A DNA stretch of 64,000 nucleotides from Bergeyella cardium (GTDB taxonomy: Bacteria > Bacteroidota > Bacteroidia > Flavobacteriales > Weeksellaceae), in NCBI RefSeq assembly GCF_003614945.1, contig NZ_QYCZ01000001.1:1010001-1074000 (forward strand), read 5' to 3'. The translations under genes and the position numbers were made by a program. The first letter of the stretch is position 1; every line of letters starts with the position of its first letter. Shown one piece after another: positions 1,988 to 51,466 of the stretch. Below the pieces are notes generated by a model. That model made no database searches. It was not told the DNA's origin and saw only the letters and a program-made list of their open reading frames with translations.

Positions 1988-4132
1988 ATGAAAGGTATTA
2001 CTCCTGCTGTACTGGTTGCCGCTCTTTTCTTTAACTCCTGCGCTACCACCTCAAAAACAGCTAAAACTAAAACGGATAAAATGACTGCTACACAAGAATC
2101 GAAACAAAGTGAAAACCCTCTGATGAGGAAGAGTTCGCTTCAATTTGAAGCACCTGAATTTGATAAAATCAAAACTGAACATTTCAGGCCTGCATTTGAT
2201 TTTGGATTGAAACAGCACAATTTGGAAATACAATCCATCGCTGATAATCCACAGCCTGCTACATTTGCCAATACACTGGAAGCATTGGAAAAAAGTGGTG
2301 AGGTACTGAAAAGGGCACAGATTATTTTTGGCAACCTTACAAGTGCAGATACCAACCCTGAACTTCAAGCGTTAGAGGAAGAGTATGCGAGTATTTTTGC
2401 GGCTCATAACGACAAGATTTATCTCAATGAAAACCTCTATAAAAGGATAAAATCCATTAGCCCACAAGGTCTAGATGCTGAAAGCAAAAGGCTTTTGGAA
2501 GTTTATCTTCAAAATTTTGAAATTGCAGGTGCTGGGCTTTCAACTGAAGCTAAAGAGGAGCTAAAGAATATTAATCAAGAACTCGCTACGCTCTCTACGC
2601 AGTTTGATTCTAAACTTTTGGAAGCAAGGAAAAATGGTGCACTTCTCATTTCTGATGTAAAAGAACTGGACGGATTGAGCCAAGATCAAATCTCTGCAGC
2701 AGCAAATGCCGCAAAAAAAGCAGGGCATCAAGGTTATCTCCTTAGCTTGCAAAATACTACTCAACAACCACTGCTTTCCAGCTTAAATAATCGGAAGACA
2801 AGAGAAAAACTCTTTAAAGCCTCTTGGCTTAGAGCAGAGAAGGGCGACAGTGCAGATACCCGAGAAGTAGTGGAAAAACTCGCAGCCCTTAGACTGAAAA
2901 AAGCTAATCTACTCGGTAAAAAATCCTTTGCCGAATGGAAACTTCAAGATCAGATGGCTAAAACTCCAGCAGCCGCTACTCAACTAATGAAGCAAATAGC
3001 TAAACCCGCCGTAGAAGCAACCAAAAAAGAGCAGGCTGAAATTCAAAAGCTCATAGATGCAGAAAAAGGAGGCTTTAAAATAGAGGTTTGGGACTGGAAT
3101 TTCTATGCAGAGAAAGTGAGAAAAGCAAAATTTGACCTCGATGAATCCGAAACAAAACCCTATTTTGAAATTTTTACTGTATTGGAAAAAGGTGTTTTCT
3201 ATGCAGCAAATAAATTCTATGGGATTTCATTCAAGAAAAGAACAGACCTGCCAGTTTATCATCCAGATGTAGTGGTGTATGAGGTTTTTGATACTGATGG
3301 GAGCTCACTTGCGTTGTATTACCTCGATTTCTATACTCGGGAGAGCAAAAGGGGAGGAGCTTGGATGAATAACTTTGTGGAGCAGTCTTATCTCTTGGGA
3401 ACCAAACCCGTAATTACCAATTGCTACAATTATGCAAAACCAACTGATGGGAAGCCATCGCTCATCAGTTTTGATGAAGTAGAAACCATTTTTCACGAAT
3501 TTGGTCATGCAATACACGGGATATTCGCTACTCAGAAGTATCCATCGCTTTCGGGAACTAATGTGCCGAGGGATTTTGTAGAATTTCCATCTCAAATCAA
3601 TGAACACTTTGCTCTTGTACCCGAAGTACTGAAAAACTACGCTATTCACTACGAGACCAAGCAGCCTATTCCGCAATCACTCATAGATAAAATTTTAAAA
3701 GCGAGAACCTTTAACCAAGGATATGCTACTACGGAATTGGTTTCTGCTGCAATGACAGATATGGCATGGCATACCATTACCTCTGAACAGGAGCTGAAAC
3801 CTACTTTGGAATTTGAAAAATCTACACTTCTCTCCAATGGGTTTACACTTCAAGCTGTACCGCCGAGATACCACACACCTTACTTTGCCCATATATGGGG
3901 AGGAGGCTATTCTGCAGGATACTATGCTTATCTTTGGTCAGAAGTAATGGACTTGGACGCTTGGGAATGGATAAAGCAGCACGGTCTCCTCACAAGAGAA
4001 AATGGTGACAGATTCAGAAAATACATTCTCTCCGTAGGGAATTCTATGGACTTAAACAAAGCTTACCGAAACTTCGCAGAGAGAGACCCAGATATAAAGC
4101 CCCTCTTACGAAGCAGAGGATTTATAAAATAA
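1988..4132 (+). CDS. dcp: M3 family metallopeptidase, Dcp-like lipoprotein
   Basis: Zinc peptidase of the thimet/peptidyl-dipeptidase family, expected to release dipeptides from the C-terminus of periplasmic peptides. The zinc motif HEFGH lies at residues 503-507 inside FHEFGHAIHG, and a conserved Glu follows about 25 residues later (VEFPSQINEH region). The N-terminus is a lipoprotein signal with Cys18 (FFNSC), so the mature protein is membrane-anchored. 714 aa fits Dcp. It has its own promoter and terminator, so it is a single-gene unit. Dcp is the best guess; oligopeptidase A (PrlC) is the alternative, but that enzyme is cytoplasmic and lacks a lipobox. Confidence 0.9.
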   Translation: MKGITPAVLVAALFFNSCATTSKTAKTKTDKMTATQESKQSENPLMRKSSLQFEAPEFDKIKTEHFRPAFDFGLKQHNLEIQSIADNPQPATFANTLEALEKSGEVLKRAQIIFGNLTSADTNPELQALEEEYASIFAAHNDKIYLNENLYKRIKSISPQGLDAESKRLLEVYLQNFEIAGAGLSTEAKEELKNINQELATLSTQFDSKLLEARKNGALLISDVKELDGLSQDQISAAANAAKKAGHQGYLLSLQNTTQQPLLSSLNNRKTREKLFKASWLRAEKGDSADTREVVEKLAALRLKKANLLGKKSFAEWKLQDQMAKTPAAATQLMKQIAKPAVEATKKEQAEIQKLIDAEKGGFKIEVWDWNFYAEKVRKAKFDLDESETKPYFEIFTVLEKGVFYAANKFYGISFKKRTDLPVYHPDVVVYEVFDTDGSSLALYYLDFYTRESKRGGAWMNNFVEQSYLLGTKPVITNCYNYAKPTDGKPSLISFDEVETIFHEFGHAIHGIFATQKYPSLSGTNVPRDFVEFPSQINEHFALVPEVLKNYAIHYETKQPIPQSLIDKILKARTFNQGYATTELVSAAMTDMAWHTITSEQELKPTLEFEKSTLLSNGFTLQAVPPRYHTPYFAHIWGGGYSAGYYAYLWSEVMDLDAWEWIKQHGLLTRENGDRFRKYILSVGNSMDLNKAYRNFAERDPDIKPLLRSRGFIK

Positions 4133-7006: not shown

Positions 7007-9004
7007 ATGAAACTAAAACATAGCATCGTAGCTCTTGCAGCTCCTTTTCTGATGAATGCACAGCAGGTAATGACACCAGAAATCCTCTGGAGTCTTAATA
7101 GATTAGGTGTAGAAACCGTTTCCCCATCTCAGTCTGAACTGATTTATAAACTGAGCAAAACCGATATCCAAACCGAGAAAACCAAGTCGGAAATTTATTT
7201 TCTCAATCTTCTCAATGGAGGAGCTTCGCATAAGATAGATTTAGGTAAAAAATCATTAATCCAATGGGATAAAAATGGAATTTATGCTCAGGAAGGCGGG
7301 AAGATTTACCGCTCCAAAGACAAGGGAAGTTCTTGGGAAGAATTTTACACCATCGGAGAGGTAGATCATATTATTATCTCCCCAGATGCAAAGAAAATTG
7401 CTTTCAGCAAAGAAGTTTTGGTAGAAAAACTTTTGGGTAAGGACAAGCATTCTGACCTTGAAAAAACTTCGGGTCATATTTATACGGATCTCAATCACAG
7501 GCATTGGGATTATTTTAATGAAGGCAAGTACAACCATATCTTCGTTGTAGAAGTTTCTCAATCGGTAGATACTGCTAAAGACTTGCTCGAAGGTAAGGCT
7601 TGGGACTCTCCTCAGCGACCTTTCGGTGGAAAGGAAGACTTCCTTTGGAGCCCAGATTCTTCACATCTGCTCTTCGTGATGAAACCTCTGGAGGGCATTC
7701 ATTACGCCAAATCTACCAACACAGATATTTTCTCCTATAGCCTTTCTTCGGGGGAAATAAAGAACCTCACCGAAACTAACAAAGGCTATGATACAGACCC
7801 TAAATTCTCTCCCGATGGGAAGTATTTGCTCTGGTTTAGTATGGCGAATGATGGCTATGAATCCGACAAAAAAGACATCAAAATAATGAACTGGGCTACG
7901 GGCAAAGTCATTAATCTTACTGAAAACTGGGACGAAATTGTAGGTGGAAATGCCTTCTTTGCAAGTGAAAAGATGATTTACTTCACCGCAGCAATGAAAG
8001 GAAGCGTTCAGCTTTTCTCATTGGATATTCAGACTAAAAAGATTAAGCAAATCACCAACGGAAATTTTGATGTGAATGCAATCTATGCGCTCAATAAAAA
8101 TCAGCTTTTGGTCAGCAGGGTAGATATTAATCATAATGCCGACTTGTTTTCCGTAGATTTGAAAAACGGTGCTATGAAGCAGATTACCGCTGTGAATAAA
8201 GATACTTATACCAAGCTCTCTCAGGGTAAATCTGAGCTTAAAATGGTAAAAACTACTGACGGTAAGGAGATGGGGGTATGGTTCCACTATCCACCGAACT
8301 TTGATCCGAACAAGAAATACCCTGCATTGCTTTATTGTCAGGGTGGCCCACAGTCTCCCGTTACCCAGTTTTTCAGCATTAGATGGAATTTCGCTCTGAT
8401 GGCAGCTAATGGATACATCATCATCGCCCCTAACCGAAGAGGAATGCCTGGCTGGGGAGTAAAGTGGAATGAGGATATCTCCAAAGACTGGGGCGGCCAG
8501 CCAATGAGAGACTACCTCTCTGCTGTAGATTATGCGAAAACCCTCCCGTATGTAGATGGCGATAGAGTAGGGGCTGTGGGAGCGAGCTATGGAGGCTATT
8601 CTGTGCTAATGCTCGCAGGGATTCACGAAAACAGATTTAAAACCTTTATCTCTCACAACGGTTTATTTGATATGAAATCTTGGTCGCTCACCACTGAAGA
8701 ACTTTGGTTTGCCGATTGGGATTTGGGAGGGAACCTCTACTCTCAGCCGCTTCCGAAGTCGTTTACTGATTTCAATCCGAGCAACTTTATCTCCAAATGG
8801 AATAAACCGATAATGATTATCCAAGGCGGGATAGACTATCGCGTACCTTATGAACAGGGGCAGGGAGCCTTCCAAGCAGCAAGGCTGAAGGGATTAAAAT
8901 CTAAATTCCTTTACTTCCCCAACGAGAACCATTGGGTACTCAAACCTCAGAACGGTATCCTTTGGCAACGCGAATTTTTCTCTTGGCTAAAAGAGACTTT
9001 GTAA
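7007..9004 (+). CDS. S9 family peptidase, DPP5-like
   Basis: Secreted serine peptidase of the prolyl-oligopeptidase family, likely releasing dipeptides from peptide N-termini. A signal peptide (MKLKHSIVALAAPFLMNA) leads into a WD40-like/TolB beta-propeller (about 30-400; repeats such as DPKFSPDGKYLLW). The C-terminal alpha/beta hydrolase domain has the nucleophile elbow GASYGGYS with Ser527, an Asp in GGIDYRVP and a His in NENHWVL. 665 aa and the GASYGGYS motif resemble DPP5 (acyl-peptidase-like) rather than DPP4. A separate DPP4 gene lies at 58.7-60.9 kb. Confidence 0.9.
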   Translation: MKLKHSIVALAAPFLMNAQQVMTPEILWSLNRLGVETVSPSQSELIYKLSKTDIQTEKTKSEIYFLNLLNGGASHKIDLGKKSLIQWDKNGIYAQEGGKIYRSKDKGSSWEEFYTIGEVDHIIISPDAKKIAFSKEVLVEKLLGKDKHSDLEKTSGHIYTDLNHRHWDYFNEGKYNHIFVVEVSQSVDTAKDLLEGKAWDSPQRPFGGKEDFLWSPDSSHLLFVMKPLEGIHYAKSTNTDIFSYSLSSGEIKNLTETNKGYDTDPKFSPDGKYLLWFSMANDGYESDKKDIKIMNWATGKVINLTENWDEIVGGNAFFASEKMIYFTAAMKGSVQLFSLDIQTKKIKQITNGNFDVNAIYALNKNQLLVSRVDINHNADLFSVDLKNGAMKQITAVNKDTYTKLSQGKSELKMVKTTDGKEMGVWFHYPPNFDPNKKYPALLYCQGGPQSPVTQFFSIRWNFALMAANGYIIIAPNRRGMPGWGVKWNEDISKDWGGQPMRDYLSAVDYAKTLPYVDGDRVGAVGASYGGYSVLMLAGIHENRFKTFISHNGLFDMKSWSLTTEELWFADWDLGGNLYSQPLPKSFTDFNPSNFISKWNKPIMIIQGGIDYRVPYEQGQGAFQAARLKGLKSKFLYFPNENHWVLKPQNGILWQREFFSWLKETL

Positions 9005-51067: not shown

Positions 51068-51127
51068 TAGAATAGGAATTTAATCTGTCTTAAATCCTAT
51101 TATAGAGATAAAAAATAAATTCTCTAT

Positions 51128-51166
51128 CATCCGCTGAGCAATATTGCCCAGCGGATGTATTTTTTA
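51128..51166 (+). terminator. terminator of icd-rpe
   Basis: CATCCGCTG-A-GC, loop, GC-C-CAGCGGATG (51128-51157), then TATTTTTT. Confidence 0.88.
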
Positions 51167-51344
51167 CCCCTCTCCTATTCTACTATAGGAGCATTTTTTT
51201 TACATATAATCACCAAAATAAAATATCCAAAATTATTAAAAAGTATTTTAAAAGGTTTTGATTCTCATTTAATTTGTTTAGTTTTTGATTTGAGAGAGTA
51301 ATATCAAAGAGGTGAAATATATAGAAGTAATAGTAGATAAAAAG

Positions 51345-51434
51345 ATTATAAAATTACAAAGGTAGCCTTTCAGCTACCTTAAACCTTTATTTCAAGGGGG
51401 GCACAGTGGGAGGCATTACCCTGTCCCTCTGTGC
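51345..51434 (-). ncRNA. candidate small RNA with own promoter and terminator
   Basis: A consensus promoter on the minus strand (51437-51466) would start RNA near 51431-51434. The RNA begins with a hairpin (GCACAG with CTGTGC and inner GGGA/TCCC, 51401-51434), then a C-rich single-stranded stretch (about 51382-51400), then an 8-bp hairpin AAGGTAGC/GCTACCTT (51359-51380) with a moderately T-rich tail. About 85-90 nt. The longest frame inside is nine codons. Not assigned to a known RNA family. It is the only recognised content of the 660-base gap apart from the flanking terminator and promoter; 51467-51703 shows nothing. Confidence 0.5.
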
Positions 51435-51436
51435 TG

Positions 51437-51466
51437 CAAAGATATATAAACTTTTTTAATACCCAA
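51437..51466 (-). promoter_or_regulatory. promoter of the candidate small RNA
   Basis: On the minus strand: TTG (51464-51466), 19 bases, TATCTTTG (51437-51444). No protein-coding gene follows it. Confidence 0.65.

Follow-up and report, generated by a model that had tools for sequence, protein, structure and literature searches.

In type III toxin–antitoxin systems such as ToxIN, RNA repeats that lie upstream of the toxin gene and are co-transcribed with it inhibit the ribonuclease (RNase) toxin directly. A further precedent for an RNA antitoxin is AbiF/RCd22 (PMC12373285), while the MuF toxins of temperate phages have immunity proteins encoded beside them (PMC5576092; Bxa and Apk2, PMC11699363) and effector delivery is the presumed task of MuF domains (PMC5512222). 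Here, we describe a small RNA gene on the minus strand of a 64,000-nucleotide stretch of the Bergeyella cardium genome (contig NZ_QYCZ01000001.1, positions 1,010,001 to 1,074,000; hereafter, the window). Comparative analysis of its sequence places the RNA in a family that accompanies putative toxin genes of Mu-like phages. We consider it probable that the RNA is the antitoxin (immunity RNA) of a phage-head RNase toxin, and that the window copy is an orphan of such a pair.

Conservation and covariation of the RNA

The RNA and its homologues almost certainly make up a new family of small structured RNAs, absent from Rfam and recognizable in sequence by a TAnnTTTG promoter, a ~34-nt 5′ hairpin whose apical stem-loop carries a bulge, and a terminator. 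When the window RNA was compared by BLAST with 99 related genomes, five had matches, the window's own genome among them, and the sole long match was found in genome G032 (83% over 92 nt), where both the neighbours and the terminator differ from those of the window. An exact 21-base pattern retrieved two stretches from a species-genome collection, namely the G032 metagenome-assembled genome and Myroides pelagicus; in the latter, the genes around the RNA are phage-like (HNH endonuclease, DnaB helicase) and ACAG/CTGT is replaced by ACAA/TTGT. Searches of phage and plasmid records by BLAST with the window RNA returned just 19–23-base matches (E about 6).

A covariance model built from the window, G032 and Myroides pelagicus RNAs (R1) revealed that the window's genome contains a second copy, at C1:1552074-1552117 (E 4.3e-8), and that a variant with a different loop is present in G037, G278, G045 and G279. 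R1 matches with E values of 4e-4 or weaker were rejected as promoter-like chance matches, some of them judged by reading. The covariance search of relatives proposed by an earlier, sequence-only reading of this DNA was performed in 316 genomes of the family with a model of eight RNAs (R3), and it yielded ten matches in seven genomes at E ≤ 0.01; nine of these, in six genomes, had E ≤ 1e-6, and the tenth (G349, E 0.0099) was judged to be due to chance.

The promoter, its four-nucleotide spacing to the stem and the hairpin itself are kept in the homologues of other genomes and of phages. In its common form, the hairpin comprises ACAR, a mismatch, GNG, a two-base bulge, a 3-bp apical stem with a loop of 5–6, CNC, YUGU and GC. 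In the eight-RNA alignment, 98.8% of 80 pair cells were paired and two-sided changes affected six out of ten pairs (a number reached by 4 out of 500 shuffles), whereas the covariation score was reached by none of 500 shuffles. A 12-RNA alignment, from which L155, L214, L223 and L224 of the 16 aligned RNAs were omitted (several of these four were misplaced by the aligner), showed standard pairs in all 120 cells and two-sided changes in seven out of ten pairs; here, none of 500 shuffles matched the percentage paired, the number of pairs or of cells changed on both sides, or the covariation score. A fifth measure, further pair types, showed no excess over shuffles in either set, with 430 of 500 shuffles being at least as high in the 12-RNA set. 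In the TCUEAP3 phage RNA, exchanges cover most of the lower stem and leave its pairing intact. The retained TAnnTTTG-N4-stem spacing and the covariation support the expectation of the sequence-only reading that the locus is a free-standing structured RNA gene of about 85–90 nt.

Several candidates were set aside. A phage-wide motif derived from the core letters (a 14-base pattern found in at least 120 viral stretches) gave, besides the known loci and among the stretches listed, only L080 with three flanking pairs, and none with more. L018 (18-base match) and L019 (16-base match) are probably due to chance, yet L018 falls within a predicted stem and reaches 17.5 bits under a further covariance model, R2. 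The type B core was present in six viral contigs, four of which lack the lower stem and the promoter.

Linkage to putative MuF toxin genes

Gene arrangement indicates that the RNA family is very likely linked to toxin genes. Six loci with the RNA (L178, L179, G045, two in G279, and phage TCUEAP3; some near identical) belong to Mu-like phages or prophages, in which the RNA is encoded on the strand opposite to the late genes. Its terminator is located at the stop codon of the gene for the minor head (MuF) protein, the putative toxin, which it abuts or overlaps, the two genes being convergent; in phage TCUEAP3, the RNA gene fills the 96-nt gap between a tail gene and the toxin gene. The MuF family PF04233 scored over its cut-off in L179 and L185. 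Altogether, the terminator abuts the toxin gene in 13 of the 19 known loci of this RNA type, some of which are near identical.

The same arrangement was encountered when starting from the protein. A protein search with the toxin domain recovered nine viral loci, two of which (L217 and L218) were contigs already known from the RNA, and an R2 hairpin was present at the toxin 3′ end with E < 1e-3 in seven of the nine, including five of the seven new ones; in L224, a hairpin of the same form was recognized by eye. A protein-profile search of 197 genomes identified ten toxin loci, distributed over nine genomes, and each of them had a convergent unit: four are of the R2 type and were previously known from the RNA, and six are new, with RNAs of other sequence types. 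Eight of these ten loci were read, and in each a convergent TAnnTTTG lies 61–82 nt from the stop codon and is followed by a hairpin and a terminator; the remaining two, both in G279, carry an R2 hairpin.

A convergent promoter-plus-terminator unit was found at 18 of 18 distinct toxin ends, compared with 6 of 504 other ends (Fisher 1.4e-28), in a control whose distance window was chosen after the first loci had been seen. This control comprised the fetched loci minus the viral pattern loci L018–L137, with open reading frames (ORFs) from 80 amino acids and with toxin ends counted apart; 13 of the 18 toxin ends (L219–L225 and L236–L241) had been found by protein alone. Among the six other ends with a unit are a toxin-like remnant in the window's genome, a MuF gene with another C-terminal end and the Myroides RNA copy. 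In an earlier form of the control, with ORFs of at least 120 amino acids, the unit was present at 23 of 425 ends. RNA identity tracks toxin identity (n = 18; Mantel r 0.76, a value reached in none of 5000 permutations), although this value, like the counts above, is inflated because many of the toxin loci belong to related phages, and shared descent contributes to it.

Predicted fold of the toxin domain

For the C-terminal part of the MuF protein, a fold resembling that of CdiA-CT RNase toxins is predicted. The matches of this part to the Pfam family CdiA_C were below the cut-off, and a comparison of the toxin profile with PDB sequences gave one irrelevant match (E 0.74). A structural model of the L217 domain based on eight sequences (predicted local distance difference test, 91.3; predicted template modelling score, 0.86) had as its best PDB match the CdiA-CT of Burkholderia pseudomallei (4g6v_A; Foldseek E 3.7e-5), with a VIA Z of 12.3 and a root-mean-square deviation of 3.0 over 122 residues; the next rows were a restriction enzyme (Z 6.3) and another CdiA-CT (6.1). 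One Glu is invariant in the toxin alignment, in which two acidic positions also lie nine residues apart, and the motif after the second of these positions is DIK in L223 and L224, DIS in L217–L222 and EIA in L225. We take 4g6v to be the CdiA-2 toxin of strain 1026b, in which acidic and Glu residues of this kind are presumably catalytic. According to Jamet et al., the CdiA-2 toxin of strain 1026b is a tRNA nuclease.

The RNA gene in the window

The sequence-only reading had described a TTG-N19-TATCTTTG promoter, a hairpin at the predicted start site, a C-rich linker and a second hairpin, all of which are present on the minus strand (Table 1); the promoter is of the Bacteroidota type. The T-rich tail that it assigned to the second hairpin also exists, but it is interrupted (TGTAATTTTA).

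Table 1. Parts of the RNA gene at positions 51349–51466 of the window.
Feature	Position	Strand	Remarks
-33 element TTG	51464..51466	-	19 nt 5′ of the -7 box; direct reading
-7 box TATCTTTG (TAnnTTTG)	51437..51444	-	Box and spacing same in homologues
5′ hairpin of the RNA family, 34 nt	51401..51434	-	At predicted start; folding, R2 match, covariation
Linker with C run (C6)	51381..51400	-	Not conserved across the family
Terminator-like hairpin (51380-51359) and interrupted T-rich tail TGTAATTTTA	51349..51380	-	Sequence reading
Predicted RNA, about 86 nt	51349..51434	-	Both ends predicted

The 5′ hairpin of the window consists of a 4-bp stem, a purine mismatch, a 3-bp stem, an AC bulge and a 3-bp apical stem closed by the loop GUAAUG; in this copy, its GC ends contribute two further pairs, and it matches R2 with 51.8 bits (E 2.6e-12). 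The folding energy of the predicted 90-nt window RNA is -33.7 kcal/mol compared with a shuffle mean of -21.05 (z -3.94; 0 of 200 shuffles as good), and evolutionary conservation is the stronger evidence of the two. No Rfam 15 family matched the window RNA above its gathering cut-off, which includes the 6S, signal recognition particle (SRP) and transfer-messenger RNA families that it had been said not to resemble, and the matches under threshold near it were implausible.

One such match, Rfam YenS at 51124-51256, was rejected, being far under its cut-off and overlying hairpins on the rpe side. Two hairpins located 3′ of rpe (51124-51191), the second with a T run, are probable rpe terminators. 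A peptide gene inside the 5′ hairpin was likewise discarded, since the ATG present in the window and L002 hairpins is absent, by reading, from the type B hairpins. Elsewhere in the window, a Bacteroidales small SRP RNA (RF04183, 61657-61762, plus strand, 95.7 bits) is the sole Rfam match at gathering level.

Host copies and the orphan gene

Copies of the RNA also occur outside phages. In G037, a MuF C-terminal remnant with the RNA is surrounded by host genes. In the window's genome, the second copy (L155) lies about 1.1 kb from a 213-amino-acid ORF, a toxin-like remnant that has a convergent unit of its own, with another sequence. This ORF matches the C-terminal half of phrog_19194 (PHROGs), which also covers the N-terminal part of the L179 phage protein; a tblastn search of phages with it gave no match. 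That these chromosomal toxin remnants still have an RNA unit supports a partnership between toxin and RNA.

G032 and G278 each harbour three tandem units of differing sequence. In G032 (contig C58, L216, about 8160-8530), the three units, each with a promoter-like box, a hairpin and a terminator, are found by a helicase-like gene, and only the middle one belongs to this RNA family.

No toxin gene abuts the window copy. Its GUAAUG loop is shared by the toxin-linked L220 and L221, and the L220 RNA is identical to the window RNA in 26 of 35 columns. Among 24 nucleotidase loci (34 genomes), the window's was the only one with the RNA, and rpe was within about 1.5 kb of the nucleotidase gene only in the window's genome; a junction and an RNA that are both private to this genome fit a rearranged or mobile site. 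We infer that the window copy is a chromosomal orphan, either retained because it guards against infection by phages that carry the toxin or left over from a prophage that has since been lost.

Weighing an immunity role

An RNA gene set against the end of a toxin-like MuF gene probably encodes an RNA antidote, and the balance of the sequence evidence leans towards an immunity role. In the mechanism that we propose, a lysogen would transcribe the RNA from the RNA's own promoter, the bulged hairpin would bind the toxin domain and block it, and this blocking would let the producer and its lysogens survive.

Besides the relatedness of the phages and the choice of the distance window mentioned above, several points weigh against this proposal. 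Six of the 19 loci (the window, copy 2, two in G032, Myroides and G278) have no abutting toxin gene, and the L225 hairpin is doubtful by eye. Every Pfam match to CdiA_C is below its cut-off, and the third catalytic-looking position, DIS in L217–L222, makes toxin activity uncertain. Recognition of the remnant near copy 2 relies on PHROGs and on a sub-threshold Pfam match, BLASTP revealed no similarity between it and the G037 toxin, and the toxin profile found nothing in the window's genome at 1e-5. A decayed toxin tail beside the window RNA, in a reading frame ending at 51365 on the plus strand, was considered and rejected as not significant.

The strongest competitor, itself unlikely, is a phage regulatory or insulating element, i.e., a convergent RNA antisense to the late mRNA between the MuF and tail genes, which would tune late expression or act as a two-way terminator, the toxin link reflecting shared position only. 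The phage RNA is indeed complementary to the late-mRNA junction and its terminator overlaps the stop codon; however, the chromosomal and Myroides prophage copies lie elsewhere, toxin remnants outside phages retain a unit, and neither a promoter of its own nor a 5′ hairpin that covaries would be required for termination. Also speaking against this competitor are seven MuF records in which the C-terminal end is a different one. None had an R2 match better than E 0.29; L229 has a promoter-like match only, L227, L228, L230 and L232 have no convergent unit (L230 and L232 share the same end), and convergent units, differing in sequence, are present only in L226 and L231. Because five of these seven have no clear unit, the RNA appears to be linked to particular C-terminal domains and not to the MuF position alone, and the link may extend to other toxins.

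Two observations on these records are added here. L226 and L231, with their TAnnTTTG units at the MuF 3′ ends, are phage records from human faecal samples. L230 and L232 are Bacteroides phages in which a small annotated ORF (3401-3652, minus strand), possibly an immunity gene, is convergent with the MuF gene and overlaps its end.

Clearly less probable still is that the RNA, instead of being an antitoxin, serves the toxin as cofactor, guide or cargo and is required for toxin activity or co-packaged with the protein. Tight toxin linkage and co-variation would be equally expected in this case, but toxin-free copies that keep promoter, hairpin and terminator are more easily explained by protection. 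There is very little to be said for a host base-pairing RNA acting in trans through the C-rich linker, the role suggested by the sequence-only reading, which had G-rich targets in mind: the RNA is free-standing and has a C6 run, but among eight RNAs a long C run occurs only in the window and L002, and the hairpin, not the linker, is the conserved part. Finally, the idea that the RNA is an antitoxin of the AbiF type, or an orphan descended from such an antitoxin, was brought to mind by the G278 RNA located behind an Abi_2/AbiF gene; it is largely refuted, given that neither RF03085 nor any other Rfam family matched nine loci of the RNA at gathering, that seven genomes gave one unrelated RF03085 match (E 1.56), that the hairpin occurs at one of 13 Abi_2 loci (G278 only), where a different RNA directly follows abiF, and that the window's genome has no Abi_2.

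As a separate observation, flavobacterial abiF (Abi_2) genes in L191 (about 2280-2440) and L199–L203 are followed by a TAnnTTTG-like promoter and an AGUGCC..GCACU hairpin, mostly with a terminator. These are probable AbiF RNAs, which RF03085 does not report at E 1.

Returning to the immunity RNA, a broader version of the proposal, to which we give slightly less than an even chance, is that polymorphic toxins of Bacteroidota phage heads are neutralised by RNA and not by immunity proteins. Toxin and RNA would then form exchangeable cassettes with many RNA types, and bacteria would accumulate orphan immunity RNAs, either one by one or, as G032 and G278 exemplify, in tandem sets, the RNA equivalent of orphan immunity-gene arrays; the window RNA would be one of these RNAs. 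No earlier report of an RNA that acts as antitoxin to a polymorphic or phage-head toxin turned up in the open-licence literature, among the top-ranked matches in the case of broad searches. If true, the proposal would explain through an RNA how lysogens withstand toxins carried in virions, would account for some of the free-standing hairpin RNAs of Bacteroidota chromosomes and would supply natural toxin/RNA pairs for direct tests.

Comparison with known systems

As in the MuF polymorphic toxins described so far, the partner of the RNA is a minor head protein of the packaging module with a variable C-terminal toxin domain; in contrast to those toxins and their small immunity ORFs, a convergent RNA gene stands in that place (PMC5576092, PMC11699363). 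The predicted fold of the toxin domain resembles the CdiA-CT of Burkholderia pseudomallei (PDB 4g6v), whose inhibitor, however, is a protein (CdiI) and whose delivery is contact-dependent. The abiF RNA (RF03085)/RCd22 is similarly a short hairpin RNA with a promoter and a terminator, and serves as the antitoxin of an RNase, but the RF03085 covariance model does not match the RNA described here and the AbiF toxin is a HEPN protein (PMC12373285). Should the RNA act by direct inhibition of the RNase protein, it would work as in type III systems such as ToxIN, from which it nevertheless differs in being a single hairpin unit with its own promoter, in its convergent position behind the toxin gene and in the different fold of the toxin.
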